Notes under the pieces: model-generated
What the model was told of the DNA's origin: nothing
The model's input: only the letters and a program-made list of their open reading frames with translations
Databases searched by the model: none
In this document: positions 1,222-62,917 of the stretch, in pieces
Position numbering within the stretch: the stretch's first letter is position 1
Layout of the letters: each line of letters starts with the position of its first letter
NCBI GenBank assembly: GCA_020630775.1
Contig: JAHDIN010000005.1
Location: 1 to 64,000 of the forward strand
Length of the DNA: 64,000 bases
DNA from: Saprospiraceae bacterium
GTDB taxonomy: Bacteria; Bacteroidota; Bacteroidia; Chitinophagales; Saprospiraceae
Direction: 5' to 3'
Program-made: the position numbers and the translations under genes

Positions 1222-4113
1222 ATGAGAGTACTTAACATCCTTGTGGCGCTCGCCATTTTACTTATTTACGCCTGCTCTCCAAAATCCACAACTAAAATTC
1301 AAGAATCTCCTACTAAAGTTATTGACACGGTAGAAGATGATATGAAGCCAATGACTTCTAGTAATGAGTCAGACATACCTATTGACGATAGGTTGGTTAT
1401 GGGTGAATTGAGCAATGGCATGAAATACTACATTCAAAAAAATGCGAAGCCTGAAAACAGAGCTGAGCTTAGATTAGCTGTAAATGCTGGTTCTATTTTA
1501 GAAGATGAAGATCAAAGAGGACTGGCCCACTTTGTTGAACATATGGCTTTTAATGGTACAGAGAATTTTGAAAAAAGTGAGTTAGTGGATTACCTTGAAG
1601 GAGTCGGTACGCGATTTGGTCCAGATTTGAATGCATATACATCTTTTGATGAGACGGTATACATGCTTCAAGTGAGGACGGATAGTACAGAATTATTTGA
1701 CAAAGGGATGTTGATTATAAAAGATTGGGCGAGTGGTGTAACCTTCGATCATGAAGAAATTGATAAAGAAAGGGGCGTAGTTGAGTCAGAATGGCGTTCT
1801 CGATTAAGTCCTGACCAAAGAATGCAACAGAAAACTTTTCCTGTTTTATATCAAGGGTCTCAATACGCAAAGCGATTGCCCATAGGAGATCCTGAGATTA
1901 TCAGAAATGCGGATTATGCTACATTCAAAAGATTTTATAGAGATTGGTATAGGCCAGACTTGCAAGCGGTTGTGGTTGTCGGGGATGTTGATGTTGCAAA
2001 AGTCGAAGCTCAGATTCAAGAGATGTTTGGTGGTATCCCTTCTAGATTAACGCCAAGGCCAAGAACAAAATTTAATGTGCCAAGGCATGAAGAAACTTTG
2101 GTAAGTGTAGCATCAGATAAGGAAGCTTCTTTTACGAATGTGAGATTGGTTTATAAGCATGATAAGAAGCATACTGAGTCATTAGATGATTATAGATTTT
2201 CTCTAGTAAGAAGTTTGTATAATAACATGATGGGTCAGCGATTGGATGAACTCAGTAAGGTGGCTGATCCACCGTTTATGTTTGCAAATACAAGTTATGG
2301 TGGTGATGTAGGAGATATGGATGCTTATCGGTCTTTTGCATTTGTTCCTGAAGGTAAAGCCCCAGCGGCATTGGAAGCTTTATTGACTGAAAACAGAAGA
2401 GTGCTTTTACATGGTTTTACACAAGGAGAATTAGAAAGGGCTAAAAGTCGTTTGATGGAGCGTGCAGAAAAAGGCTATAAGGAAATGGATAAGACAGAGT
2501 CAGGAAGAATTGTAATGCGCTATGTGTATAGGTATTTAGATAATATTCCAATTCCAGGTCCAAAGCAAACATTGGATTTGTATGAAAAATATTTGCCATC
2601 TATTACATTGGATGAAATTAATGTTTTGCCATCTCAATGGATTAAAGATGATTCCAGAGTAGTAGTAGTCACGGGGCCTTTGAAACCAGATGCACCATTA
2701 CCGACTGAATCTGAAATTAAGAAAATGCTTGTTGCTGTAGATGCAACCAATCCCGAGCCTTATGAAGATGAGGTTATTGATGAACCATTTTTTGATAAAG
2801 AATTATCAAGTGTAGCTGTTGCTGAAACTAAAAACTTCGATGATGTAGATGTTGAATATTTGAAATTAGATAATGGTGTGCAGGTGTATTTGAAAAAGAC
2901 CACTTTCAAAAATGACGAGATATTGATGAATGCTAGTTCGCCGGGTGGTACTTCTTTGTACAATGATGAGGAGTATTTTACAGCTTCTAACTCTACAAGC
3001 ATAGTACAAGAGGCAGGACTTGGTGCCTTTAGTTCTACTCAGATGGATAAGATGATGGCAGGAAAGACGGTCTCTGTGTCTCCATTTATTGGTTCGTTAT
3101 CTGAAGGATTTAGTGGTTCAGCTTCTCCAGATGATTTGGAAATAATGTTCCAAATGATTTACCAGTATTTTAATGATCCAAGAATAGATGAGGAGTCTTT
3201 TATTTCTTTGATGACAAAGCAAAAAGGATTGTATAAGAATTTGATGTCTAATCCAAATTTCTATTTTTCGGATCATGTTTCCAGATTGAAATACAATAAT
3301 CACCCTAGGATGGGCTTCCCTTCTTCAGAAGATTGGGAAAAAATAGAATATGATAAGGCGATGCAGTTTTATAAGGAACGATTTGCAGATGCTTCAGATT
3401 TTACTTTTTTCTTCGTTGGGAATTACGATGATGCAACAATCAAATCTCATATACAAAAGTACCTTGGTAATTTGCCATCAATCAATAGGGAAGAAACCTG
3501 GAAGGATCTAGATATCGTTCCTGTTAAAGGTGGATTAAAAGATCGAATTGCAAAGGGTGTAGCGCCTAAAACAAATGTGCATATGTATTGGCATGGCGAT
3601 TTTGAGTATAATGAAGCAAATAGATATTTGATATCGTCTATGCAGGCCTATTTAAGAATCAAGTTGAGAGAGTCACTAAGAGAAGACTTAGGTGGTGTGT
3701 ATGGTGTTAGAGTCAGCGGAGGTGGTACGAAAAAACCGAAAGAAAGATATGGCATTACCATTTCCTTCAATGCTGATCCTCCTAAAACTGATACTTTAGT
3801 GATGGCTGCCAAAGTGGTTATCGAAAAAGCCATTAAAGAAGGTCCAAGCCCCGAGGATATGCAAAAGGTTGTAGAAACCCAACGACAAAACAGAATCAAG
3901 GATCTAGAGCAAAATAGATTTTGGAGCCGCCAAATCCAATCGGCAAGTGATAATGATGATGATTTTAGCAATATCTCTTTAGAGGCCCTTGAAGGAAAAA
4001 TTGATAACCTCACAGCCGAACAAATTCAATCAGCTATAAAGCGATATTTTAATTATAACAATTACATCGAAATAATTATGGAACCCGAACCCAAGGAAGA
4101 GGGTAGACCATAA
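1222..4113 (+). CDS. M16 (pitrilysin/insulinase) family zinc metalloprotease, lipoprotein
   Basis: A 963-residue protein with a lipobox-type signal (LLIYAC, Cys18), so probably an envelope lipoprotein. The N-terminal M16 domain carries the inverted zinc motif HxxEH (H103-E106-H107 in AHFVEHMAF), with the downstream glutamates of the third-ligand region in ERGVVESE (183-190). A second M16-like domain starts near residue 540 and lacks HxxEH, as is usual for the structural half of two-domain M16 proteins. The length fits the family. Expected role: hydrolysis of peptides in the periplasm; the substrate is unknown. A rho-independent terminator follows 11 bp after the stop. Confidence 0.93.
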   Translation: MRVLNILVALAILLIYACSPKSTTKIQESPTKVIDTVEDDMKPMTSSNESDIPIDDRLVMGELSNGMKYYIQKNAKPENRAELRLAVNAGSILEDEDQRGLAHFVEHMAFNGTENFEKSELVDYLEGVGTRFGPDLNAYTSFDETVYMLQVRTDSTELFDKGMLIIKDWASGVTFDHEEIDKERGVVESEWRSRLSPDQRMQQKTFPVLYQGSQYAKRLPIGDPEIIRNADYATFKRFYRDWYRPDLQAVVVVGDVDVAKVEAQIQEMFGGIPSRLTPRPRTKFNVPRHEETLVSVASDKEASFTNVRLVYKHDKKHTESLDDYRFSLVRSLYNNMMGQRLDELSKVADPPFMFANTSYGGDVGDMDAYRSFAFVPEGKAPAALEALLTENRRVLLHGFTQGELERAKSRLMERAEKGYKEMDKTESGRIVMRYVYRYLDNIPIPGPKQTLDLYEKYLPSITLDEINVLPSQWIKDDSRVVVVTGPLKPDAPLPTESEIKKMLVAVDATNPEPYEDEVIDEPFFDKELSSVAVAETKNFDDVDVEYLKLDNGVQVYLKKTTFKNDEILMNASSPGGTSLYNDEEYFTASNSTSIVQEAGLGAFSSTQMDKMMAGKTVSVSPFIGSLSEGFSGSASPDDLEIMFQMIYQYFNDPRIDEESFISLMTKQKGLYKNLMSNPNFYFSDHVSRLKYNNHPRMGFPSSEDWEKIEYDKAMQFYKERFADASDFTFFFVGNYDDATIKSHIQKYLGNLPSINREETWKDLDIVPVKGGLKDRIAKGVAPKTNVHMYWHGDFEYNEANRYLISSMQAYLRIKLRESLREDLGGVYGVRVSGGGTKKPKERYGITISFNADPPKTDTLVMAAKVVIEKAIKEGPSPEDMQKVVETQRQNRIKDLEQNRFWSRQIQSASDNDDDFSNISLEALEGKIDNLTAEQIQSAIKRYFNYNNYIEIIMEPEPKEEGRP

Positions 4114-4123
4114 GATTAAGTTT

Positions 4124-4161
4124 AAAGAGGCTGTCTGGTAAATTAGAAGCCTCTTTTTTTT
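4124..4161 (+). terminator. rho-independent terminator after the M16 protease
   Basis: A 9-bp stem (aaagaggct at 4124-4132 with agcctcttt at 4148-4156) is followed by a T-run to about 4161. It lies directly downstream of the M16 gene on the same strand. Confidence 0.85.
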
Positions 4162-4280
4162 GTGGCTACTATGATCAAAGCCATGATGCTATTCGTTATA
4201 CGGCAATAATCTTTTAATACAAATTTGATACTTCGACCTTGCTGAGAAGTCTTTTACTATGCAATTACCAGTTTTAATTC

Positions 4281-4520
4281 TGAACCTAAAAGTCATCTCC
4301 TTGCACTGCGTTTTATCTTGATAGAGGAGCTATTCCTTCTGCTTTTAGATATGCTGTTTATAGGAACTAGATTTAGTTGTTGAGCCTAAAAGTCATCTCC
4401 ATGTACTGCGTTTTATTTTGATAGAGGAGCTATTTCTTCTGTTTTTAAATATATTGTTTATAAGAGCTAAATGTAGTTATTGAAACTAAAAGTCATCTCC
4501 GTGCACTGCGTTTAGTCGAT
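4281..4520. repeat. 100-bp tandem repeat, about 2.4 copies
   Basis: The word agtcatctcc occurs at 4291, 4391 and 4491, giving a period of exactly 100 bp. Units 4281-4380 and 4381-4480 align along their whole length with scattered substitutions (for example gatagaggagctatt in both). The third unit breaks off after about 40 bp. The period is not a multiple of three and no reading frame covers it, so it is non-coding. It fills most of the 479-bp gap between the convergent M16 and arylsulfotransferase genes. Positions 4162-4280 of that gap hold nothing I can name. Confidence 0.85.
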
Positions 4521-4549
4521 GAGTAAAAGATTGTCATTTAGTAGCTTCT

Positions 4550-4589
4550 GTTAACATCGGACCCCAGTTCCGATTGTTAACATTGGACC
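4550..4589. repeat. 14-bp direct repeat with internal dyad
   Basis: gttaacatcggacc (4550-4563) recurs with one change at 4576-4589. The segment between them allows a short imperfect hairpin (aacatcgga with tccgattgtt). It lies just 3' of the arylsulfotransferase-like gene and might serve as part of its transcript end. Confidence 0.45.
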
Positions 4590-4592
4590 TAT

Positions 4593-6356
4593 TCAAGGAT
4601 ACAACGACATCCTCTCCACCCGATGCCAAACAATCCCCGATACATTCATACGCATTTCATAAACGACCTCTTGAGATTGAAAATCTAGCTCAATTAATTT
4701 AGCACCGAAGATGCCTGGTCCATTTAGGACACCTGCACCAGGAGCAAAGAGTATGTTGTCTTTTTCGGGAAGATAATCTACATCAGATACAATTCTTGAG
4801 TAGGTGTCGATGCCTCTTTCTTTGCCGTAGCTAAATACTTGTTCGACAGTGAGGTCGTCTTTATTAATTTTGTAGCCGACAGCACGACTGTATTTTTCTA
4901 TTGATGAATAATTTCTGAAGTCGCCATTGTCAAAACAAAATAGGGTGCCATCTGGATGTATAAAGGGTGCATGCTGATACCAAGGCCATTCAAAATCAGG
5001 ATGATTGTCGAGACCATCTAAAATTCTTTGATCTTCTATAAGAACGCCATTAGCATCTCTGGGCTTGAGTAAGACATCTTCAAAAAATTGGCCTTGTTTA
5101 TTGCGATCCCATCCTAAGTGATTATTTAAAACCCAAACAACTCTGTTGTTGTAGTCTAGTTTGGCGATGCCTTGTCTTCGAGTAGAAACAATGATGGTGT
5201 TGTCTGAAGGATCATGTATGACCGCATTCGTATGAACCCAATCAATCACACCACCCCAATTATCAAATCCTTGGACGACACGCATTTCATCTAGAGATAC
5301 TCTTAGGTCCCACTCTTGAATAATAAAGCCAGAATTACGATCTATTTCGACAACAAAGTCTTCAGTGGACAAATTACCGTCATGATAGAAGCTGCCATTT
5401 TTAGAAGCGGTTACCAGTAAATTGCCGTCCTCTTTCTCCTGTACATTATGATGAAAAGTGTATCCAGATAAAAACCATGTATTAATTGTATTGCCAAAAA
5501 TATCAACTTCAAATATATTAGGAGAAGGCCAAGCTCCGAAGTAAAAATTACCATTTTGTAGTCTTTCTATCCCAACATCATAATTTAGAAATTGCAATCT
5601 GTTCGAACTTGAAAAGTCCAATAAGTATCTTACTTCACCTTGTGGGTCAAGCATGAAAGGTACTGCAGGGCTTTCTTTGGCTCTATAAGAAATGAAGTTG
5701 AGCCCTGGCTCCATTTGGTCAGGTTTGTATACGTCAACAATGACTTCAGGAAGATAATCGGGCGTTTTAGGTGTTGCTTGTTCAAATCGATGTTGCCACA
5801 CTATATTATCATTGACTAAAAAGTCTACTTCAATTTCATTTATGTGATCGAAATACATCCCAAGTATGGGCACGTCGAAAGTACTTGATGTTTGATCGAA
5901 ATGCTTTTCAATAGTACCGGCATCATTATCTTTCCCTGTTACTCGAACTTTTAAAGTACCGTTTTGTTCTGGAAAACTAAATCGTAATCGACTGGACAAA
6001 GGCGTGAAGCCTTCAGGATTATAGTCATAGTCGAAAATAATAGGTTTGCCCAATCCGATAAATTTGACATCATCAGATTGTAGTTGTAACCTCAATAAAT
6101 TATTATCGAGAGCTTCGACATCTCTAATGCAAAGTAAACTGATGGCTATTGATGGAGTATCATTGAATTCTAAAATGAGGAAGTCACTCGTCTTTTCAAA
6201 TTTTGAAAGAAAATCATTTTTATCAAGCGCATCATCTATAATTTGGATAATGTCTTCTACATCTTCACAATTCTCAAATGTCTCATCCGCTTCATGACCA
6301 CAAGATACAATGGCAGAGATAACGAACACGCATAGTAAAAACCAATAGGCCCTCAT
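4593..6356 (-). CDS. arylsulfotransferase (ASST)-like lipoprotein
   Basis: A 587-residue protein with a lipoprotein signal (FVISAIVSCGHE, Cys19). Residues about 190-587 show the AssT/arylsulfotransferase beta-propeller pattern: FHHNVQEKEDGNLLVTAS, VVEIDRNSGFIIQEWDL, a DWVHTNAV segment, and KLDYNNRVVWVLNNHLGW, with later histidines in YQHAPFIHPDGTLFCFDNG. Family members move sulfate between phenolic compounds or act as propeller scaffolds; the true substrate cannot be read here. The N-terminal 190 residues look like a separate beta domain. The gene starts 5 bp after the BNR-repeat gene and is probably co-transcribed with it. Confidence 0.82.
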   Translation of the reverse strand: MRAYWFLLCVFVISAIVSCGHEADETFENCEDVEDIIQIIDDALDKNDFLSKFEKTSDFLILEFNDTPSIAISLLCIRDVEALDNNLLRLQLQSDDVKFIGLGKPIIFDYDYNPEGFTPLSSRLRFSFPEQNGTLKVRVTGKDNDAGTIEKHFDQTSSTFDVPILGMYFDHINEIEVDFLVNDNIVWQHRFEQATPKTPDYLPEVIVDVYKPDQMEPGLNFISYRAKESPAVPFMLDPQGEVRYLLDFSSSNRLQFLNYDVGIERLQNGNFYFGAWPSPNIFEVDIFGNTINTWFLSGYTFHHNVQEKEDGNLLVTASKNGSFYHDGNLSTEDFVVEIDRNSGFIIQEWDLRVSLDEMRVVQGFDNWGGVIDWVHTNAVIHDPSDNTIIVSTRRQGIAKLDYNNRVVWVLNNHLGWDRNKQGQFFEDVLLKPRDANGVLIEDQRILDGLDNHPDFEWPWYQHAPFIHPDGTLFCFDNGDFRNYSSIEKYSRAVGYKINKDDLTVEQVFSYGKERGIDTYSRIVSDVDYLPEKDNILFAPGAGVLNGPGIFGAKLIELDFQSQEVVYEMRMNVSGIVWHRVERMSLYP

Positions 6357-6361
6357 TTATA

Positions 6362-9300
6362 TTATTTCACCTTTATAAAGTCTTCTAGATTCTGTTTGAT
6401 TAATTGATTTAGAATAGGAATCTCTTTCAACTTGATGTCCTCAAACTTATTCAGCTCAACGTCAATTAAAGCACTTAATTCATCTCTTACTTCATACATC
6501 TGGCTACTTGGAGCGCCATCTCCAATTTGAGCTAGTGAATTAAGATGAGCTAGTTTGTTAGTGAGTCGAATAGGGTAGTTGAGGGGGTCTTGTCTGCTTT
6601 TGTTTTTAGTTTGGTACAAAGTCTTTTCTACTTCTCCAAGTGCCTCGTGGATAGTTTTAATTTTTGAGTTAACCGTGTCAATGTCGTGATGCTCTTGGAA
6701 AGTCTTCATTTGTTTTTTTAAAGCTCTGATGTCTTTGATGCAGTTGTGAGCTTCTGATACTTTTTTATTTACACTTTCGACAAAATCAAATTGTGATTTA
6801 TAATCGTCTTTGCTAATCATGAGTCTAGGGTCACCTTTGATTGTAAAGTTTTGTGTTTGCGTCTTTCCGTTAATATTTAGCGAAACAGCATAATTGCCAG
6901 GCACTATAGAAGCGCCACTTAATGAACCCCACCATAGGACCATGCCTTCGAAGTCGTCGGCACCTTTAGCTTTCATATTCCATCTATGCTTATTAGATCC
7001 TGCTTTTAGATCTTTAAGCTTAAGACCTTTTTCTTTAGAGTATGTACTAAAAGATCTTAAGGTATCTCCATTTGCATTTAAATAAGTAATTGAAATAGAG
7101 TCTTCTTTTTCATCGTATTCATTCAGATAAAAATAGCTGGTTACACCACCAGGATGATTTGTGCCAGCACCTTTAGTGTTTGTTCTTTGTCCACCAGGGA
7201 TGCGATAACTATCGACGGGTTTAAATAGGAAGTCTTGTCGCCCTTTAAATTCTAAAGATTGTTTGAGAATATTTAAGTCGTCAATCATCCAGATGCCTCT
7301 TCCTTGCGTGGCAGCAATTAAATTATCATTTTTAATAACGAGGTCTGTGATTGGAACTATAGGCAGATTAAGTTGAAGACTACTCCAGCTTTGTCCACCG
7401 TTATTTGAAATGTACATGCCCGATTCTGTACCCGCGTATAAGACGCCTTCTTTTTTATGGTCTACTCTTATGGCTCTTGTGAAATGTTCAGCACCAATCC
7501 CAGATACTATTTTGGTCCAACTAGCGCCATAATTTTCTGTTTTGTAGATATAGGGTTTAAAGTCGCCTTCCTTGTATAATGTTCCTGCGATGTAACAAGT
7601 ACCTTCATTGTGATAATCTGGTTCAATACAATTAATCATCAACCATTTAGGCATGTTCGTTGGGGTGACATTTGTCCAGCTTTGACCACCATCTTTAGTG
7701 ACATGAATCAATCCATCATCGGACCCCACCCAAATTAAACCTTCTTTTAATGGTGATTCTGCTGCCGCGAATATAGTGCAGTAGTATTCTACACTTGTAT
7801 TGTCTTTGGTGATAGGGCCTCCTGACGATTTGAGTTTAGTCGTGTCATTACGCGTGAGATCCTCACTAATTGTTTCCCAACTTTGACCACCATTAGTAGA
7901 AACATGGAGGTGGTTTGAAGCTGCGTATAATCGCTTGGGGTTATGTCTTGAAAAGAAAATTGGAAAGTTCCATTGAAACCTATAGCGCATGCCTTCAGCG
8001 CCGTGCCCCATAGGATTGTCTGGCCAAACATTTATGGCTTTTCGGCTGCCTGTCTTATGATTGATTCTAGTTAGGTAGCCGCCATAGCTTCCGCCATATA
8101 CAACATCATTGTCTAAAGGATCAATAGCTATATGTGCAGATTCTCCACCAGCAGTAGGTTCCCAATGACTATCATTAATTTCCGAACTGGAAGTTCTGTG
8201 ATCAATTCTTATGGTACTATTATCTTGCTGAGCGGCATATATTCTATATGGAAAATGGTTGTCCGTAGTCACGCGATAAAACTGCGCTGTAGGCTGGTTG
8301 TAATATGTTGACCAAGTTTCTCCACCATCATAAGTGACTTGTGCGCCACCATCATCACCTATTATCATCCTGTTAGGATTCTCTGGGGCAATCCATAAAT
8401 CATGATGGTCTCCATGAGGCGCTCTGAAAGATTTGAATGTTTTGCCACCATCCGTTGATTTATGATAGGCGACATTCATTACATAAACGAGGTCTTCATC
8501 TTTTGGGTCAGCGTATATTCTTGTATAGTACCAAGCTCGTTGTCTTAGAGATCGACTTTCATTTAACTTGCGCCATGTTTTACCTGCATCATCTGATCTA
8601 TACACACCACCTTTCTCGTTTTCTATAATGGCCCAGACTCTATCAGAGTTGGCCGGAGAAACAGTAACTCCTGAAATACCCCATATGCCTTCTGGTAATC
8701 CTTTGTTGCTGGAGATGTTTTCCCAAGTTTCTCCACTATCGGTACTTTTCCAAAGCGCAGAGCCTTCTCCTCCACTTAATAGACTATAAGGTGTCCTTCT
8801 AATATTCCAAGTGGAAGCATATAAAATTCTTGGATTATTGGGGTCAATAATTAAATCAACTGCGCCTGATCTTTCGTTGGCAAATAAAACACGTTTCCAG
8901 TTTTTGCCTCCATCAATACTTTTATAAATCCCTCTTTCTTGGGAATCTGCGAATAAATTCCCCATAACCGCAGCATAGACAATATTATGGTCTTTTGGAT
9001 GAATTCTAATTCTTGATACATGTCGAGATTTTTCTAGACCGACTTGCTGCCAATTCTTTCCACCATCTTCAGTTTTCCAAATGCCATATCCAAATGATAC
9101 ATTTCCTCTGACCGTTTTTTCTCCTCCGCCAACATAGATCACATTATTGTCGGATTCTGAGATGGCAATCGATCCAATCGATCCTCCAAAATGACCATCC
9201 GATATATTTTCCCAAGATCGACCTCCATCTATTGTTTTCCAAACACCACCGCCGGTTGCACCAAAGTAAAATAGGTTGGGTTGACCAGGTACTCCCGTTA

Positions 9301-53367: not shown

Positions 53368-54396
53368 TTATTTGCCGTCTACATCTCCAGTTTTTACAGC
53401 TTGAATGTTAAAATTTTGAGTGGCGCCTGGCTGTAAATCAATTTCAATTTCATTTGGGACAAATTGATAAGCATCTACATTTGGAAATGTACTGTCTTTA
53501 CCAAGAATGACTCTCTGTATTGTAAAGAGGTCCAAAGCTGATATCGCCCCATCACCATTCGCGTCTGCAGCTAATTTGATTAGATCATCTTCAATAGCTT
53601 CTTTGTCTAAGATATGTCTCACAATTACAAAAAGATCTAAAGCCGATAGATTATCTGATACGCCATTGGTTTTCTTAAACCTGATGTATGGATTACTTAT
53701 GTCTGGATATTCTTCAGCTAAATTACTGATAACCAAGTCGTTACTTGGGTCAATGTCATATGAAACTGTCCCATCTTGTGATTCTAATGTAATGTCTACA
53801 TCATTTATAACTGTACCAAAATTGGTAGCCACCTCAAATTGAAATGTTGATGGTGCTGGAGCATTACCGCCAGTCGCACCAGTGGCTTCTATCGCCGCAT
53901 TAAGATTAGCAATTCGCCCAGCTATACCTCCGCCTCCTAAACCGTAAGCCACCTCTCCATTTGGACTAATAACCGCAAAACTAGGTGTGCCGTAATACCC
54001 ACCATAAGTACCATTTCTAAAAGGTAAAGATGCCGCTGCAGCTCCTCCATCATCACCAACCCCTGGCATAGTTAAGCCTAGTTGTGTTTTGTAGGCAGCA
54101 ACTTCAGAGCTAGAATCATTAGTTAGCACTGTGAATTCGAAGAATTCTACATCGTGTTCTCCTGCGCCCCATTCTTCATATAAATCTTGGAAAGCTGGAG
54201 CTATCGATCTACATGGAGGACAATTTATAAAGAATAGCTTTACGACTACAGTTGTTCCTTTATCAAGGTAATCTTCATAAAGTCTGTGTCTTTGACCATC
54301 AGAATCTATGACATCGAAATCTACCGCTTGCTGCGAAAAACCATTTGGCAGAAAGAATATGATGGTAATTATGAATGTAAATAGTGATTTTTGCAT
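53368..54396 (-). CDS. secreted redoxin fused to a dockerin-like domain
   Basis: A 342-residue protein with a signal peptide (LFTFIITIIFFLPNGFSQ). The thioredoxin/AhpC-type domain (about 22-175) has the active site C59-P-P-C62 (FFINCPPCRS) and a cis-Pro region YYGTPSFAVISP. Residues about 235-302 form a type I dockerin-like pair of calcium-binding repeats (NLSALDLFVIVRHILDK and DANGDGAISALDLFTIQRV). Dockerin-like modules in Bacteroidota secreted proteins are usually not cellulosomal. The end does not show a complete T9SS sorting motif. It is divergent from lipB with only 25 bp between starts. The fusion is unusual. Confidence 0.85.
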   Translation of the reverse strand: MQKSLFTFIITIIFFLPNGFSQQAVDFDVIDSDGQRHRLYEDYLDKGTTVVVKLFFINCPPCRSIAPAFQDLYEEWGAGEHDVEFFEFTVLTNDSSSEVAAYKTQLGLTMPGVGDDGGAAAASLPFRNGTYGGYYGTPSFAVISPNGEVAYGLGGGGIAGRIANLNAAIEATGATGGNAPAPSTFQFEVATNFGTVINDVDITLESQDGTVSYDIDPSNDLVISNLAEEYPDISNPYIRFKKTNGVSDNLSALDLFVIVRHILDKEAIEDDLIKLAADANGDGAISALDLFTIQRVILGKDSTFPNVDAYQFVPNEIEIDLQPGATQNFNIQAVKTGDVDGK

Positions 54397-54421: not shown

Positions 54422-55129
54422 ATGTCACTATTGCTTACACAATATCATGAGTTAAACGGATTGAAATACCAAGATGTTTGGGATTTTCAAGCCTTACTTC
54501 ATAATAGTATCAAATATCATAAGCTTGATAAAGCTACTTCTTACCCTAAAGCTAAAGCGAAAATTTTAAACCATTTGGTCTTTTGCGAACATTATCCCGT
54601 AATTACTATGGGAAAAAGCACTAAAATCAATCATTTGGTAAGTTCTGAAGCAGATCTTGATAAAAGTAATATTGAATTATTTAAAATTAATAGAGGAGGT
54701 GACATCACCTATCATGGTCCTGGTCAAATAACGGGTTATCTTATTTTTGATGTGGAGCTATTATACAGAGACGTCCATCGATTTGTTAGAGAAATAGAAG
54801 CATGTATTATTCGTCTGTTGGCAAAGTATGACATTATTGCAAGGCGACTGGAAGGGTATACTGGTGTTTGGGTGGAGGATCGTCACGAATTCAGAAAAAT
54901 TTGCGCAATTGGTATTCATTTAAGCCGTTGGGTGAGTATGCATGGATTTGCTTTGAATGTCAATACATTGCTTGATCATTTTAATCATATTGTGCCATGT
55001 GGTATTGATGAACCGAATAAAGCTGTGACATCTATGGCTAATGAATTACAATCTGAATTAATTTTTAGTGAAGTTCAAGCACAGTTGAAAAAAGTAGTGG
55101 GTGAAGTGTTTGGCTTGAAGTTTATTTGA
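54422..55129 (+). CDS. lipB: octanoyl-[ACP]:protein N-octanoyltransferase
   Basis: A 235-residue enzyme that transfers octanoyl from ACP to lipoyl domains, the first step of lipoate assembly. Signature RGGDITYHGPGQ (91-102), catalytic Lys K149 in RKICAIGI, catalytic Cys C183 in VPCGI. An insertion-free LipB of normal length. No lipA is adjacent. Confidence 0.96.
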   Translation: MSLLLTQYHELNGLKYQDVWDFQALLHNSIKYHKLDKATSYPKAKAKILNHLVFCEHYPVITMGKSTKINHLVSSEADLDKSNIELFKINRGGDITYHGPGQITGYLIFDVELLYRDVHRFVREIEACIIRLLAKYDIIARRLEGYTGVWVEDRHEFRKICAIGIHLSRWVSMHGFALNVNTLLDHFNHIVPCGIDEPNKAVTSMANELQSELIFSEVQAQLKKVVGEVFGLKFI

Positions 55130-55144
55130 AATGTTGGCTCTAAA

Positions 55145-56341
55145 TTACTTCATTAAATGATTTACAGTTGGAACAGCATATAGTGATTCTGTAGTAGCTA
55201 AATATTTCCAATAATCATCTAAGATACTGGCCTTAAGATCATACAGATCTATTTTTAATTGAATCAAGAATATATTTAAATTGAGAATCATTCCAATGTT
55301 TCGCATTGTCGGATTGGTTTTAAGTTCTTCCTCAATTGCATGTATTTCTTCACTTAGATTTTTTATTCTCGAATCTTGAAACTCATAAATTGCGATATCA
55401 TTTTGAAGATCTAAAAAGTCTTCTCGTTGTTCATTTTTAATGTCCAGTTGATTTGAATTATATTCCGATAATAATTCTCTTTGATTAAGTTTTAATTCAG
55501 CTTGTTTTAATCTTGAATTATTGTTGGCAAAAGGCAATTGGAAAGCTGCAGTGACAGAAAATCGTTCTTTTAATAAATCATCGTGAGGTCCTCTATAATC
55601 GAATTGTATAAAATCAATAATCTGCTTGGACTCTATTTTTTCCAATTCTAGTTCCTTTAAAAGAATCTCTTGATCAATTTGCAATTCTTCTTGCACTGAG
55701 TTGATAGATGCATTGGACAAAGTGCTAGTTATTTTTGATTTAACATCGGCAACCGTTACCAATCTGTTCCAACTAATATCTACGGGGCTTGGACTAAGTG
55801 CAGATAAATTATTTTCGTGTTGAAGAATTTCTTGCTGGACTTCTTTGATGTCACTTTTAATCTCAAGCCAATCATCGATATTGGTAGCTTTCTCTTGAAT
55901 TTCATGATAGTATACTTTTTCTAAATCGTATAACACATTCAAAAGGGAATCTTTTAAAGTGATGGATTGGCTCATTGTATATGCAGAAATCAATGCATCG
56001 TAGGCAGCATTAATTTTATATCTACTTAACTTGTTTTCTTGGAAACCAAACTTTTGTTTTTGAGCATCCAAAAGCGATTTGATTGACTGCTGATATTTTT
56101 TTGAGCTTGGAGAAAATCGAATGGCATATCGCTGTCTTTCAAAATCAAATTCATCTGTTTCTGTTCTGATTTCAGCAGACTCTATCCAAGTAGTTTTAAT
56201 ATCTGGATCTTCTTCTACGAGAGGTGTCTCTTTATTTTCTAGAATTTCAAAAAAGAGTACATTAAAGTTTTTAGATTCCTGTGCATAAAGAAATCCGATG
56301 TTATAGATAAAGAAAGTGGTTATTAAAACTTTTATGCTCAT
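55145..56341 (-). CDS. TolC-like outer-membrane channel protein (tentative)
   Basis: A 398-residue protein with a signal peptide (VLITTFFIYNIGFLYA). The body is almost all alpha-helical and coiled-coil prone. A TolC-type hinge is suggested by FSVTAAFQLPFANNNSRLKQAELKLNQ (about 260-290), which is the place where TolC proteins have 'P..DGG..RA....A'; the segment QREDFLDLQNDI matches the following helix. It is shorter than TolC (about 400 rather than 450-490), so a reduced or divergent member. Last gene of the CotH operon, 5 bp after the HlyD-like gene. Presumed role: outer-membrane exit duct. Confidence 0.62.
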   Translation of the reverse strand: MSIKVLITTFFIYNIGFLYAQESKNFNVLFFEILENKETPLVEEDPDIKTTWIESAEIRTETDEFDFERQRYAIRFSPSSKKYQQSIKSLLDAQKQKFGFQENKLSRYKINAAYDALISAYTMSQSITLKDSLLNVLYDLEKVYYHEIQEKATNIDDWLEIKSDIKEVQQEILQHENNLSALSPSPVDISWNRLVTVADVKSKITSTLSNASINSVQEELQIDQEILLKELELEKIESKQIIDFIQFDYRGPHDDLLKERFSVTAAFQLPFANNNSRLKQAELKLNQRELLSEYNSNQLDIKNEQREDFLDLQNDIAIYEFQDSRIKNLSEEIHAIEEELKTNPTMRNIGMILNLNIFLIQLKIDLYDLKASILDDYWKYLATTESLYAVPTVNHLMK

Positions 56342-56346
56342 TCAAT

Positions 56347-57390
56347 CTATTTCATTGATATTTTATGAGTATTGGTACTTTCTTTTTTATTAGGAATGAG
56401 CTCAAGTATCGTTTTTTCTTTTTGTAAAAACTCATTGTCCTTCGGAATGCTAATGATGACCTCTCTTCCAAAAGTTTTAACTTCTTGTCGTTTTCTTAAC
56501 CTTGCAGGAATTTCTACAATTCGCGATCCTAAGCCTATTACTTTCCCTTTATAATCTAATCCACTTTGTTTAGTAGATTTTACAATGATGGAATCGTTAA
56601 TAGCGATTTGCATTATGAAATCTTCTTGTATGTATCCTTTTATAATCGAAGGGTTGGGTTCGTAAATTGAAAGTATTGTTTTGTAAGAACTAAAATGTTC
56701 AGCCTCCTTGCAATTAATATTACCAATTAATCCGTCTTCAGGTGCTAACATAGAAATATCAATGACTTGATTATTTTCTCTATGTTGAATCATGTATTCT
56801 AGTCTGTTTACACGGACGTTAAATTCTTTTTCTCCGTTTAGTAACTCTGATTTTTTGGCTTGTATTTTTTTATCAAATAAAGCAGTTAAGTTTTTGTATT
56901 CAGTTTCTAGAAGCTTAACTTTTTCTGTGTGTCTATTGGAAGCGTTAGCAGGCACAGATACAGTACTTAGACTGTTAAGTAAGTTTTGTTCTGTTGAAGA
57001 AGCTGTTTGGGTTTCCTTAATTTCATTTTTGATTTTGGAAAGCTCTAATGATTTTTCCTCTTCTAGAATATTTATTTCTTCATTTATTTTTTTTGACCAA
57101 ATATTTCTTTCTTCATTCACAAGTTGAATCTTGTAAATTTCGTCCTCTAGCTTTAAATCATCCTCTAGTCTTATTACGTCAATAAGTGGCTGATCTTTTT
57201 TAATAGCTTGTCCAGGACTGACGTAGATCTTTTTTATTTGTATAGGGTGGTTGAAATTAACTTCCGTTTCTTTATTCTCTGCAAAACCATAGAATAGAAT
57301 AACTGAACTTTTATGGTCTTTGTTAAACATGAACAAAGAAGCGCCAACGCCAATGACTGCCAAATAATATAAAATTGCAGAACCTTTCAT
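56347..57390 (-). CDS. HlyD/RND-type periplasmic adaptor protein
   Basis: A 347-residue protein with one N-terminal membrane helix (AILYYLAVIGVGASLFMF, 4-21). A lipoyl-like half-motif (KKIYVSPGQAIKKDQPLIDV, about 53-72), a long coiled coil (about 75-205), the second lipoyl half (ISMLAPEDGLIGNINC) and a beta-barrel part (IKGYIQEDFIMQIAINDSIIV) follow. This is the standard membrane-fusion-protein layout. The start overlaps the DUF4956 stop by 1 bp. No ABC or RND pump is encoded beside it, so DUF4956 may stand in as inner-membrane partner. Confidence 0.82.
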   Translation of the reverse strand: MKGSAILYYLAVIGVGASLFMFNKDHKSSVILFYGFAENKETEVNFNHPIQIKKIYVSPGQAIKKDQPLIDVIRLEDDLKLEDEIYKIQLVNEERNIWSKKINEEINILEEEKSLELSKIKNEIKETQTASSTEQNLLNSLSTVSVPANASNRHTEKVKLLETEYKNLTALFDKKIQAKKSELLNGEKEFNVRVNRLEYMIQHRENNQVIDISMLAPEDGLIGNINCKEAEHFSSYKTILSIYEPNPSIIKGYIQEDFIMQIAINDSIIVKSTKQSGLDYKGKVIGLGSRIVEIPARLRKRQEVKTFGREVIISIPKDNEFLQKEKTILELIPNKKESTNTHKISMK

Positions 57391-58139
57391 TAAAGTAAAG
57401 TCGTGTTATCTCCAAGTCTTAATCTTACATTATCGATAGACTTGATGTTATTTAATCCCAAAGCGATTTTATCTACATTTTGCCTTGAACTAACGGTGAA
57501 TTTGAAATGATATTCCTTAGATACAGGGACCTCCATGAGATGCGTTATAGCACCTTCTTCATTTTTAATTTTTTTTGTTCTGTTTATGTCTAAATACCTT
57601 TCTGAAATTAATTTGTAGCTATTGCATTCTTTTGAAAGCATGTCTTCCAAATTTTTTATTTGTTCAATTTCTTTCAGTGGAATTTGAAACTTCAAAGAGC
57701 CAGTTAGTTTCTCATTTGTGCCGAGCTTTGCAAATCTAAAAATGATTGCCGCTGCACAAAACCCAAGGGTGCCTATGAGTGCAATTGTAAAGCCATAAAC
57801 ACCACAAGCAATACCAATAGCAATAGAAGAGAAAACAAATGCCATATTCCTGGGATTGTCCAGCTTAGTTCTAAATCTGATAATGGCTAAAGCACCCATC
57901 ATACCAAGACCCCTAGCTAAAGAGTCGCCTATGGCTTGCATTACCATAGCAGCGACAATGCTAATGAGCACCATGGTCTGTAACATGTTATTCGACTTCT
58001 CAATAGATTCAGTAGTCCAAGTGTAGGTTATAGCTACAAGCGAGGATAGAAAAAAAGAAGACAATACAGTTATTGTTATCCCTACTGCAGTAGGGTTTTC
58101 AGAGTAATTGTTTGTCGATAAAAAGTCAAAAAATTCCAT
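57390..58139 (-). CDS. DUF4956 inner-membrane protein
   Basis: A 249-residue protein. Four predicted membrane helices lie in residues about 15-145. The DUF4956 hallmark is present: LGMMGALAIIRFRTKLDNPR and FVFSSIAIGIACGVYGF. The C-terminal 100 residues are a soluble cytoplasmic domain (ferredoxin-like by pattern). In other bacteria DUF4956 genes are often found next to VTC-type polyphosphate polymerase and CotH genes; no VTC gene is in this window. It begins 20 bp after the CotH gene. Biochemical role unknown. Confidence 0.9.
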   Translation of the reverse strand: MEFFDFLSTNNYSENPTAVGITITVLSSFFLSSLVAITYTWTTESIEKSNNMLQTMVLISIVAAMVMQAIGDSLARGLGMMGALAIIRFRTKLDNPRNMAFVFSSIAIGIACGVYGFTIALIGTLGFCAAAIIFRFAKLGTNEKLTGSLKFQIPLKEIEQIKNLEDMLSKECNSYKLISERYLDINRTKKIKNEEGAITHLMEVPVSKEYHFKFTVSSRQNVDKIALGLNNIKSIDNVRLRLGDNTTLL

Positions 58140-58159
58140 TCAAATGGAAATATACTCTT

Positions 58160-61100
58160 TTATTGAATAATAACCTTTGAAACAAATTTATCATTTGCCA
58201 TCACAGTATATAAACCTGGCGTTAAACTAGAAACATCGAGTTTGTGCTGTCTATCATTAAGCTGATTTAATAGCATGACTTCTCTTCCCATAACATCTGT
58301 TATTCTTAATTTTTCAATTAAATGCCCATTGGTCTTAAATTGAACAGTTAAGGAATGCGAAGTAGGGTTAGGGAATGTCACGAGTCTATCACTAACAAAA
58401 TCATTTTCGGTGACGCTTGTTGATATGTCATTGTTTTGATTAAAAGTAGGCGTGGATAACTCAAATAATCCCGTACCATTAGGCTTCCTAGCAAAACTCA
58501 CGTCTGTCTCTTGTTCTGCGTATTCGATTCTATCAATAACTAATGTGTCAGGATTTAAAAGTGATATAGCTTCTCCAGATCGTGATAATTTGAAATTTGC
58601 ATGAAGGCCTTCTTGTTCTCCATCTTCGTCAGCCCAAATGATTAAATAATCATCAGGTCTAATACTTGTGCCATCAGGAAATTCAAACTTATCTAAGTTT
58701 TCGTCATTATCCGTTAAGAAATATCCTGATAAGTCTATAGTTGAAGCACTTCCATTATATAACTCAATCCAATCGTCAAACTCACCATCTTGATCTGCAA
58801 CCGTGACATTGTTAGAAGCCATAAATTCATTTATTACTAATCCATCCATATTTCCTCCGGATCCCTCTAATTTAAAATGTGCAACCAAAGTGTCTGGCAT
58901 TGATAAACGATACATCATATTTGGACTATCTACATTAGGTTGAATGTCATTACCGTTTTTACTTTCCCAATGACTGAACACATATTGATTGGCGAAAACA
59001 TCCTTTACCGATGCGTTTGCCAGATTATCCATGTCGCCAAAGTAATCTCCTGTCCAAGGTAATATGTTGTGCGAAATCGTATTAAAAGTTAAATCGCCAA
59101 CTCCTGGAGGATCTGAAACTAAAGTAACAGAATAGGTTCCTTGAATTTCTCCATAGCATTCCATGGCTCCGTCGCCTAGAAATTCACATCTATCGGCTAT
59201 AAAGTTTCTTAATTGATCTACGTTGCTTTCCCATTCATTCATAGTGCCGCCCCATCTTTCAATTTGTCTTGGCATCTCTGGGGCAATCTTTTCGATCATT
59301 CTATCTAATAGTTCAATCATGTTTTCACAAGTGAAAACAGTATTCATTAAATCCGCATATCTCGAATAATACAGTTGATTGAATTCTGGACTTTCTTCAA
59401 ATAATTTTAAAAGGATCTTTTCATGACCGCCAATATTACCAAGAATGCCCGTTGTCGCAGGATCATCTGGTTCAGCAAATTGATCTCCTCCTAAAAGTCT
59501 ATAATCTCTATCGCATGAAAATCCCCATTCGTCGCAGCAATCAGGATTGAGGTCAATCACAAAAGCAACTTTAGGATCTGCGGGGTCATAAGCGAAATTA
59601 GGATCTTGAGCAGCTGGACAATCTGAAGCATTGTTTCCACCATTCGTGCTAAAGTCTTGATACCAATTCTCACAAAAAGGTGTCCATTCGTCACAACATT
59701 CAGGAAAGAATCTAATGACGTCTTCGAGTATTGGATCGTCAGCAGGATAGGGACTTGTGCCATCAACAATAATTGGGCATGATTCTACATCGACGGTATT
59801 ATCTAGAAAATTATAAGTGTCTTGACAGAATGCACCCCATTCGTTACAACAGCCTGGTAGAAATTCAATGACTTGGGCAAGTATTGGATCATCTGCGGGA
59901 TAAGGACTTGTGCCATTGACAATGATTGGGCAATCTTCAATGATTACCTCAGTTTGTATAGTGGATGGATCGTCATAGAATCCTTGACATTCCATAGTCC
60001 AGTCTGAACAACATTCAGGGTGAAAATTTACTACTTGTTGGAATGTCGGATCATTATCTTCGTAAGGTGAATTATTGCCTCCGTAATAGTCGCAGACATT
60101 ACCGAAAAACCCGTCAAAAAAGAAATCTGTTTGGGTTGAAACTTCATAAATGTCGCAGAAGCTGGCTTGAGGACTTACGTCAGGGATTCCAGTATAATTT
60201 ATATAATAGTCAAATGTTGCATCTAAATCCCAAAGGATATATCCCCACTTTTTTTGACCTCCATTTTCAGCTAAGCCTCTCCACCAGCCTGTATTATAGA
60301 TAAGCCAGTCAGAAGCCACAGTAGCTTGATTCATGACGAAATAATCAATCAAACTAACCATGTCTATAGTGTCTTGTGCTATTTTATAATTAGCAGCTGT
60401 AGACATGTCATTTTGTAAGATAAAATCTCTAATATCAATCCATTCTCTCAGCGCTTTCTGGCCTCCGTACTCAATCTCGGTATCTCCCCAAGTACTTAAA
60501 AATTGAACATCTTCTTTACCCTGGTTGTAATAGTAATCGGTGTAGTCATGATCAACTACTTTTTCTCTCATGCCGTATACGCCCCAATACTGACCATTAA
60601 GAAAAACAATAACTCTCTCTACTTTTCTGACATCTAATTTCATGTTGCCTTCTTGAGCTAGGGTTTGTACATATTCGTCCCGTACATGTGTGCTGCCTTC
60701 GTGATCAAAATCATTAATAGCAGGGTAGTTGTCATCACCTGAATTTCTAAACATAAATCTTTGGTAACTATCTCTGTCTGAGCTTGAGAAGATATCAGAA
60801 TCTATATCTTTCGAGTATCCCATTTCGTCTCGAGAAATCCAATCGATACTTCTGTGAGGTAGTACCCAAGAATCTTGTCCATGTCTATTTAGCTCTCCAA
60901 ATGATCTGGATTGGAGCTCACCATCTCTAAAGTATTCCAGAGATCCTTCAGGAAGTAACTCACCTATGCCACCTGCTAATTCTACAACTCTGTCAGCAGC
61001 TACAGAGAAAACAGGTAGCGTAAAAGACTCGTTTATAAAGAATGTGTTGAATTGTATCTTTCCTGGAAGAATATTATTGTCATTGCTATATGCTCTTGCT

Positions 61101-61798
61101 TTAATTACCGTCGTCTCAGATATGTTTATAGGGTCAGTATAAATAGGAGAGTTCGGCAAAGGGTTAGATCCATCAATGGTATATCTCAACGTCGAGTTTG
61201 ATTCATTATTTGTTAACTCTACAGTTATCTCGTTATTGTAGAAACCTGCGTCTAAACTCATTGAAGGTTCATTCGTGTAGCCTTTGAAGTTGGGTGTTGT
61301 ATTGTTTGATAGGCCAAAACTAGGAGCAGTACTTACTGCCCATTCATCTGCACCATCAGTTAATCTACAATTGGAGTGCTCTGCAAGCGTTAGGCTTAAT
61401 GCGGCCTGATCTACTATAGTTTGTTGAGCATCTGCAATTACTAAGACATCATCACCTGAGGTTTGTGTTAATTTAAAGTTCGTGTGATATTCTCCATTGT
61501 AGAGACCATCTTTACCTGAACAGAAAAAGGTTAAGAATCCATTAGCAGGTAATAGGGTTCCTTGTGGAATAAGCCATTTATCAATGCTGTCTTCTTTGTC
61601 TGATAAGTACCAGCCACTTATATCAATATCTTGATTACTAGCATTGTAAATTTCGAGCCAATCTTCAGTCTTATTAAAGCTATCTTTAATATTATCAAGA
61701 TTTGAGGCTGAATATTCATTGATATAGACTTGAGAAAAGGCTTGGGATACACTACATATGAGTGTCACTAAGGTGATAATTCTTAAATACATGTACAT
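58160..61798 (-). CDS. CotH kinase with Cys-rich insert, lamin-tail domains and T9SS signal
   Basis: A 1212-residue protein with a signal peptide (MYMYLRIITLVTLICSVSQAF). Order: lamin-tail domain (about 24-140), chitobiase/hexosaminidase C-terminal-like domain (YTIDGSNPLPNSPIY, about 180-260), CotH kinase part 1 (about 285-545; RFMFRNSGDDNY, LNGQYWGVYGMREK, YILWDLDATFDYY), a Cys-rich insert of four repeats (about 545-770; SPYPADDPIL, PECCDEW..FC), CotH part 2 (EESPEFNQLYYSRYADLMNT), an InlB-B-like region, a second lamin-tail domain (about 985-1105) and a type A T9SS sorting domain (TFPNPTSHSLTVQF). CotH proteins are atypical protein kinases that phosphorylate secreted proteins. First gene of a four-gene operon. 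Confidence 0.9.
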   Translation of the reverse strand: MYMYLRIITLVTLICSVSQAFSQVYINEYSASNLDNIKDSFNKTEDWLEIYNASNQDIDISGWYLSDKEDSIDKWLIPQGTLLPANGFLTFFCSGKDGLYNGEYHTNFKLTQTSGDDVLVIADAQQTIVDQAALSLTLAEHSNCRLTDGADEWAVSTAPSFGLSNNTTPNFKGYTNEPSMSLDAGFYNNEITVELTNNESNSTLRYTIDGSNPLPNSPIYTDPINISETTVIKARAYSNDNNILPGKIQFNTFFINESFTLPVFSVAADRVVELAGGIGELLPEGSLEYFRDGELQSRSFGELNRHGQDSWVLPHRSIDWISRDEMGYSKDIDSDIFSSSDRDSYQRFMFRNSGDDNYPAINDFDHEGSTHVRDEYVQTLAQEGNMKLDVRKVERVIVFLNGQYWGVYGMREKVVDHDYTDYYYNQGKEDVQFLSTWGDTEIEYGGQKALREWIDIRDFILQNDMSTAANYKIAQDTIDMVSLIDYFVMNQATVASDWLIYNTGWWRGLAENGGQKKWGYILWDLDATFDYYINYTGIPDVSPQASFCDIYEVSTQTDFFFDGFFGNVCDYYGGNNSPYEDNDPTFQQVVNFHPECCSDWTMECQGFYDDPSTIQTEVIIEDCPIIVNGTSPYPADDPILAQVIEFLPGCCNEWGAFCQDTYNFLDNTVDVESCPIIVDGTSPYPADDPILEDVIRFFPECCDEWTPFCENWYQDFSTNGGNNASDCPAAQDPNFAYDPADPKVAFVIDLNPDCCDEWGFSCDRDYRLLGGDQFAEPDDPATTGILGNIGGHEKILLKLFEESPEFNQLYYSRYADLMNTVFTCENMIELLDRMIEKIAPEMPRQIERWGGTMNEWESNVDQLRNFIADRCEFLGDGAMECYGEIQGTYSVTLVSDPPGVGDLTFNTISHNILPWTGDYFGDMDNLANASVKDVFANQYVFSHWESKNGNDIQPNVDSPNMMYRLSMPDTLVAHFKLEGSGGNMDGLVINEFMASNNVTVADQDGEFDDWIELYNGSASTIDLSGYFLTDNDENLDKFEFPDGTSIRPDDYLIIWADEDGEQEGLHANFKLSRSGEAISLLNPDTLVIDRIEYAEQETDVSFARKPNGTGLFELSTPTFNQNNDISTSVTENDFVSDRLVTFPNPTSHSLTVQFKTNGHLIEKLRITDVMGREVMLLNQLNDRQHKLDVSSLTPGLYTVMANDKFVSKVIIQ

Positions 61799-61933: not shown

Positions 61934-62917
61934 TCAAAGCTTGGGGCAGCCACCATTATCTATCGGGCCTTTTTGTGTGGGGCAGTTATCTTTATGATCT
62001 GGTATACCATCTTCATCTTTATCAGGGCATCCGAAAGTTTTTGCTGGTCCTGCAATTTGGGGGCAATTATCATAGGCATCCATAATACCATCTTCATCAA
62101 AATCTGGACAACCAAACAAAAGTTTAGAACCAGGAACATCAGGGCACTCGTCTTTACTATCAGCAATGCCATCTCCATCTCTATCTCCCGATAGTATGTC
62201 AAATCGGAGGCCTACATTGATCCCGAAAATTTGATAGGCATCATTTTTTTCAGGGTTAGCAGATTCGCTGATACCATCTAAATAATCGCTTACAGGAAGT
62301 CTGAAATTATAAAATAGGTCAGTATAAGCATATGGAGACAATTCAAGCCGTAATCCAAGGCCAAATGGAAATTGTTTACCTCCTACAGATCCTTCGGCTT
62401 GATCCAATAGGACATCATTCATTCTAAATTCAGGTGGATTACCCCAATCTCTTAAGTTTTCATCATCATTAATGATTGCAAGAGCAATACCTCCATTAAT
62501 AAATGGAAAGACACGTGGAGTGAATTGAGCGCCTTCGCTCAAATTAATTTCTTTTTTAAATAAGACATATTCTACAAGTGCGCCGAATTCGTGTAATGCA
62601 CTTCTATAAGCAAAATCTCTTATAAATAGTTGAGGTCCCCATTCAGATTTATCTTCAAGGTTCATGTCGTCGCCTTCTAATTCGGTTCCTCTGTATTGGA
62701 GTTTTAGTCCGACGTTTTTACTGATTCCTAAAGTGATATGACCACCGTATGCTAACTTGGTGTTTTCTAAAAATCCTTGTCCATGCCTTGCCCAACTGTT
62801 TGAATCTGATCCATGTGTGGATAAGCCTAAAGTAAAACCTGCATCAACATATTTTTGGGCTGAAATAAATAGACAGTTAAAGCATAGACATATAATAGAA
62901 AGGTATTTCATGATCAT
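61934..62917 (-). CDS. outer-membrane beta-barrel protein with thrombospondin type 3 repeats
   Basis: A 327-residue protein with a signal peptide (MKYLSIICLCFNCLFISA; ATG 62911 is an equally good start). Residues about 20-240 are a beta-barrel with glycine/aromatic alternation. The end carries three TSP3-like calcium repeats (DRDGDGIADSKDECPDVPG, DFDEDGIMDAYDNCP, DKDEDGIPDHKDNCP). It resembles OprF-type porins, but the OmpA peptidoglycan-binding domain that normally follows the TSP3 linker is missing; the protein stops at GGCPKL. A -7 box lies 46 bp upstream. Confidence 0.82.
   Translation of the reverse strand: MIMKYLSIICLCFNCLFISAQKYVDAGFTLGLSTHGSDSNSWARHGQGFLENTKLAYGGHITLGISKNVGLKLQYRGTELEGDDMNLEDKSEWGPQLFIRDFAYRSALHEFGALVEYVLFKKEINLSEGAQFTPRVFPFINGGIALAIINDDENLRDWGNPPEFRMNDVLLDQAEGSVGGKQFPFGLGLRLELSPYAYTDLFYNFRLPVSDYLDGISESANPEKNDAYQIFGINVGLRFDILSGDRDGDGIADSKDECPDVPGSKLLFGCPDFDEDGIMDAYDNCPQIAGPAKTFGCPDKDEDGIPDHKDNCPTQKGPIDNGGCPKL

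Follow-up and report, generated by a model that had tools for sequence, protein, structure and literature searches.

Organization of the operon

The window, i.e., the whole stretch of 64,000 nucleotides that we analyzed, is part of contig C67 in a draft genome of 3.1 Mb, with a completeness of only 54%. The nearest named relative detected is an uncultured Lewinella MAG (L032), which makes a Saprospiraceae-like member of Bacteroidota the probable host. The window contains four ORFs on the minus strand, separated by 20, -1, and 5 bp, which confirms the gene positions and tight packing reported in the first-pass annotation of this DNA. In the direction of transcription, they are:

58160..61798 (-), CotH kinase, 1212 aa (ORF and Pfam)
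57390..58139 (-), DUF4956 membrane protein, 249 aa (ORF and Pfam PF16316)
56347..57390 (-), predicted HlyD-type membrane-fusion adaptor, 347 aa, with an N-terminal membrane anchor (HlyD_3 and family profile)
55145..56341 (-), predicted TolC-fold outer-membrane factor (OMF), 398 aa (model compared with TolC, and OEP in homologues)

The gene beyond the OMF (54422-55129) is on the opposite strand to the operon. No pump gene adjoins the operon among the window ORFs and their Pfam matches, DUF4956 being the sole adjoining inner-membrane candidate. The initial claim that there is no ABC or RND pump holds for the operon, and no pump recurs at the homologous loci described below. A VTC gene had also been reported as missing here; indeed, Pfam detects no VTC domain (PF09359) in the operon, and none was found in the window's own genome, of which 54% is covered. 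As for the surroundings, the gene immediately upstream of the CotH gene (61934-62917, minus strand) encodes C-terminal thrombospondin type 3 repeats, while 53368-54396 (minus strand) encodes a thioredoxin-like AhpC/TSA protein with a dockerin type I domain, an unusual combination (both by Pfam).

Predicted adaptor and outer-membrane factor

The last protein of the operon (55145-56341) had been labeled TolC-like. For its sequence alone, no relation to TolC/OEP was detected in Pfam, NCBIfam, or a PDB profile search. However, OEP is matched by five of 25 homologues (best 4.8e-8), and the AlphaFold model (pLDDT 84) aligns with TolC with Z scores of 20.5-21.2 over 365-372 residues (rmsd 4.4 at Z 21.2, 365 residues), the best Foldseek E value being 1.3e-10. 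Homologues and fold agree with the label, and the model indicates that this protein is an OMF with a TolC fold along its whole chain. The third gene product matches Pfam HlyD_3 (E 3.3e-5; 25 bits against a cut-off of 22.2), and its family profile is related to the solved structures of HlyD (1.9e-8), EmrA (1e-7), and MacA (1.6e-6). By this profile relation to solved adaptors, it is predicted to be a HlyD-type membrane-fusion adaptor.

The DUF4956 protein

DUF4956 is clearly assigned by PF16316 (E 3.3e-16; 59.9 bits against a curated cut-off of 30.6), while its sequence has no match among solved structures. Its model, of moderate confidence (pLDDT 75), displays approximately five membrane helices followed by a C-terminal ferredoxin-like domain, and contains no NTPase. 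Fold matches are confined to the ferredoxin-like domain, the C-terminal domains of MgtC being among many. The MgtC profile (PF02308) reaches 18.2 bits on the window protein against a cut-off of 31.4, with weak subthreshold matches in 16 of 28 homologues. As modeled, the topology of DUF4956 resembles that of MgtC. Where one of the membrane helices ends, a short segment (IRFRT) contains two arginines, R88 and R90, that are conserved across the three DUF4956 clades defined below, while Q54, D72, and R97 are specific to the clade of the window. The conservation of R88 and R90 would be compatible with an anionic cargo. In the literature searched, DUF4956 is named in three papers, of which the CotH-related one (PMC7112168) shows neither adaptor nor OMF, and our search found no report on Bacteroidetes that combines polyphosphate and VTC with HlyD and the outer membrane.

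Conservation of the DUF4956-adaptor-OMF trio

Using DUF4956 searches and reading of the flanking genes, we assembled 90 loci of the window's DUF4956 clade. An adaptor gene is found downstream of DUF4956 in 89 of these, wherever the contig reaches, and an OMF in 87 (86 by profile and one, L140, by Pfam). The exceptions to the full trio are two contig ends (L040 and L197) and a second copy without OMF (L059). The genes are tightly packed, with median gaps of 3 bp between DUF4956 and adaptor, and -4 bp between adaptor and OMF. The trio occurs in the window's family (f1), in 17 genomes of a family from another class (f44), and in genomes G110 and G158, i.e., in at least two Bacteroidota classes. 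The co-occurrence of these genes in other genomes is far beyond chance, and the last gene product is identified as an OMF; the first-pass annotation withstands both of the checks by which it was to be judged. No constant ABC, RND, or MFS pump neighbors the trio at the homologous loci, and in the first 29 loci no widely recurring neighbor other than CotH was found. CotH is the one neighbor that recurs from genus to genus.

In f44 (loci L123-L124, L126-L139, and L141), the neighboring genes are ordinary and their order is fixed: YceI, a DUF6580 membrane protein, the trio, and a short-chain dehydrogenase whose gene overlaps that of the OMF. This last gene was considered as a candidate VTC, which was rejected upon its identification as a short-chain dehydrogenase. 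At two other loci, the adaptor (L214) or the OMF (L216) is split, the adaptor into two ORFs, which might in both cases reflect an assembly error.

The CotH protein and its association with the trio

The window CotH protein matches Pfam PF08757 (E 1.9e-27; 97.1 bits against a cut-off of 23.8) and consists of a signal peptide-like start, LTD, Fn3-associated, and CotH domains, and a T9SS type A sorting tail (Por_Secre_tail). Since it keeps, as D497 and D524, the two Asp residues conserved in 98-100% of 42 CotH domains, it may be active as a kinase. Residues ~566-765 (59500-60110, minus strand), inserted behind the catalytic portion of the CotH domain, form four repeats of ~50 residues with the motif CCxEWxxxC, which are also found in L033 (four) and L032 (two) and are absent from the other CotH proteins compared.

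Outside f44, 24 of 73 loci have a CotH gene no more than two genes away from the trio, where ~0.7 would be expected for nine CotH genes distributed among 4000 (round numbers), i.e., about 37 times chance. Several lineages are represented among the adjacent CotH proteins, which led us to reject a single co-inherited CotH lineage as the cause of adjacency, and the genes of these proteins lie upstream, downstream, or once inside the operon (in L233, between DUF4956 and adaptor). Across 395 Bacteroidota genomes, CotH is present in 57 of 58 with DUF4956 versus 78 of 337 without (Fisher p 7e-30, relatedness being ignored). In G110, the single detectable CotH of the genome adjoins the trio. Some genomes, e.g., G582, have a CotH protein of the window's kind and yielded no DUF4956 in our searches. 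Since many genomes have CotH without DUF4956, while all but one of those with DUF4956 have CotH, it seems that DUF4956 relies on CotH or serves it, and not the opposite. CotH was also considered as an obligate, fixed part of the operon, which we rejected because it is adjacent in only about one third of the loci. This, together with the many CotH genomes lacking DUF4956, makes CotH a partner that is frequent but not a constant fourth component. The proposal that CotH and DUF4956 are often neighbors is supported, both by adjacency and across genomes.

Sister DUF4956 clades and the link to VTC

A maximum-likelihood tree of 135 DUF4956 proteins, midpoint rooted and with a bootstrap that had not fully settled, splits into three clades: (a) DUF4956-CotH-like-VTC, (b) VTC and DUF4956 with a protein of ~356 aa, and (c) the trio. 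In clade (b), this ~356-aa protein matches the MacA (1.4e-9), EmrA, and AcrA structures by profile, and an hhalign comparison with the trio adaptor gives 97.6%, while HlyD_3 is matched by five of 19 of these proteins and most members have no clear Pfam match. It is therefore predicted to be a membrane-fusion adaptor of a different family from that of the trio. In L065, the gene order is adaptor-VTC-DUF4956-OMF (OEP 2.7e-29), whereas VTC is missing in L246 and L251, which are both adaptor-DUF4956-TolC (L251, at 3751-6991 of a Hymenobacter volaticus plasmid, has its adaptor annotated as hypothetical). The set of adaptor, DUF4956, and OMF thus occurs in two DUF4956 clades that differ in adaptor family and in gene order, as independent pairings. 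This strengthens the initial suggestion that DUF4956 is an inner-membrane base, the contact between it and the adaptor being what we infer.

L140, which branches off deepest within the trio clade, has the order CotH-DUF4956-HlyD-OMF-VTC-LTD protein, which ties the trio to VTC systems. Two Bacillota plasmids carry CotH, VTC, and DUF4956 side by side, and their gene tables, which are incomplete, list no adaptor or OMF nearby. CotH and DUF4956 likewise occur with polyphosphate polymerase in the Pel clusters of Gram-positive bacteria (PMC7112168). A second DUF4956 clade, found in Saprospiraceae-like genomes (loci L067-L092), has the order DUF4956, a divergent CotH of ~950 aa with a beta-helix C terminus, and VTC. 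The trio is best read as a two-membrane derivative of the VTC/DUF4956 module, with DUF4956 as its inner-membrane part, the simplest reading of adaptor and OMF being that they are additions for crossing a second membrane. Since the tree is midpoint rooted and its bootstrap unsettled, we can only suggest that VTC disappeared from the trio and was not instead gained elsewhere.

VTC itself was genome-wide absent from all 17 near-complete f44 genomes with the trio, and also from several near-complete f1 genomes with it. VTC as a necessary partner of the trio was rejected on these grounds, and polyphosphate made by VTC cannot be the cargo in general. PPK1 was present in 25 of 25 genomes tested, which says little because PPK1 is common and has no linkage to the trio.

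Discussion

Our best overall explanation, to which we give a probability of roughly 0.55, is that the trio is a DUF4956-based export conduit related by descent to a VTC module, with a likely phosphate-rich cargo. DUF4956 would occupy the inner-membrane place usually taken by an ABC, RND, or MFS pump, the HlyD-type adaptor would dock onto it and span the periplasm, and the TolC-like protein would be the opening in the outer membrane. This module would derive from, or share descent with, DUF4956 systems working with VTC polyphosphate polymerase: CotH-VTC-DUF4956 would be enough in one-membrane bacteria, while in two-membrane bacteria adaptor and OMF would have been added, VTC being dropped from the operon in the window's clade. 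The cargo would most likely be an anion rich in phosphate, either small or polymeric, that serves at the cell surface, which is where T9SS-secreted CotH kinases would act. The identity of the genes, their conservation, the TolC fold, the independent adaptor pairings, and the CotH association are what the analysis shows; we infer the physical assembly, the direction of transport, the cargo, the energy source, and the service to CotH. Taken separately, assembly of the trio as a conduit is probable and better supported than a phosphate-rich cargo, which we put forward tentatively and with some doubt. In yeast VTC, the growing polyphosphate chain passes through a channel lined by basic residues (PMC9911596); this and the conserved R88 and R90 make a phosphate-rich anion our leading guess. 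A peptide had been suggested as another possible cargo, and nothing pointing to one was found in this analysis.

Other explanations for the trio have to be weighed. Adaptors and OMFs may be shared between pumps, and the adaptor and TolC-like protein might serve an ordinary pump encoded elsewhere, DUF4956 being its regulator or sensor in the manner of MgtC-like proteins, which act on other membrane proteins. The subthreshold MgtC signal in 16 of 28 DUF4956 members would fit this, as would the C-terminal fold that matches those of MgtC among many others. However, two unrelated gene orders join DUF4956 directly to adaptor and OMF while a pump is never constant, and in Bacillota VTC systems DUF4956 is the sole evident membrane protein beside the polymerase, so that we consider such a regulator rather improbable. 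A specific exporter of polyphosphate, supplied by VTC or PPK1, is a little harder to sustain: it would explain the homology and linkage of DUF4956 with VTC in the sister clades and L140, and the presence of PPK1 in every genome tested, but not the absence of VTC from the operon and the 17 f44 genomes, nor a widespread PPK1 without linkage to the trio.

We regard as least likely of these that the trio is an exporter unrelated to CotH, adjacency being a by-product of how common CotH is or of a shared habitat. Two thirds of the loci have no CotH beside the trio, f44 has another fixed neighborhood (YceI, DUF6580, and SDR), and CotH occurs without DUF4956 in many genomes. Against this stand an adjacency ~37 times above chance that involves several CotH lineages on either side of the operon and, in L233, within it, the position of the only detectable CotH of G110, and the fact that VTC-type DUF4956 has a CotH neighbor too.

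A DUF4956-based conduit would matter in several respects. To our knowledge, the source of the phosphoryl donor for kinases secreted outside bacterial cells is unsolved. The operon suggests an undescribed supply route to the cell surface, perhaps for something phosphate-rich, and the donor question becomes testable through a small, conserved conduit that accompanies CotH and has relatives in a module with polyphosphate polymerase. The known partners of TolC-type exporters are ABC, RND, MFS, and FUSC-type. If DUF4956 is the inner-membrane part, it would add a class to this short list, and a widespread domain would have its first functional hypothesis. In the boldest version, DUF4956 would be a new inner-membrane class for TolC-type conduits, energized by polymer synthesis or membrane potential instead of a pump, that carries polyphosphate or some other phosphoryl donor through the two membranes to T9SS-secreted CotH kinases for surface phosphorylation; so complete a scheme is a long shot.

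Comparison with known systems

DUF4956 shows a distant resemblance to the MgtC family (PF02308), with a remote signal in the sequence of its membrane part and a C-terminal domain of the ferredoxin-like type, but scores under the curated cut-off, and we know of no linkage of MgtC to adaptor and OMF genes. In DUF4956 systems related to that of the window, a VTC polymerase domain is accompanied by a membrane protein, as in the yeast VTC complex (PMC9911596), whose basic-lined channel finds a parallel in the conserved basic residues of DUF4956 near the membrane. However, the membrane protein is different, and the window operon has neither a VTC nor an SPX domain. A further counterpart is the CotH-VTC-DUF4956 cluster (PMC7112168), in which CotH also adjoins a homologous DUF4956; that cluster has VTC, while the window operon has an adaptor and an outer-membrane factor and no VTC polymerase. 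With no pump and with DUF4956 at its core, the adaptor/OMF operon of the window is a two-membrane form of the CotH-VTC-DUF4956 system. Finally, HlyB-HlyD-TolC, EmrAB-TolC, and MacAB-TolC bring together, as in the window, a HlyD-type adaptor and a TolC-fold OMF; where these systems have an ABC, MFS, or RND pump, the window has DUF4956.
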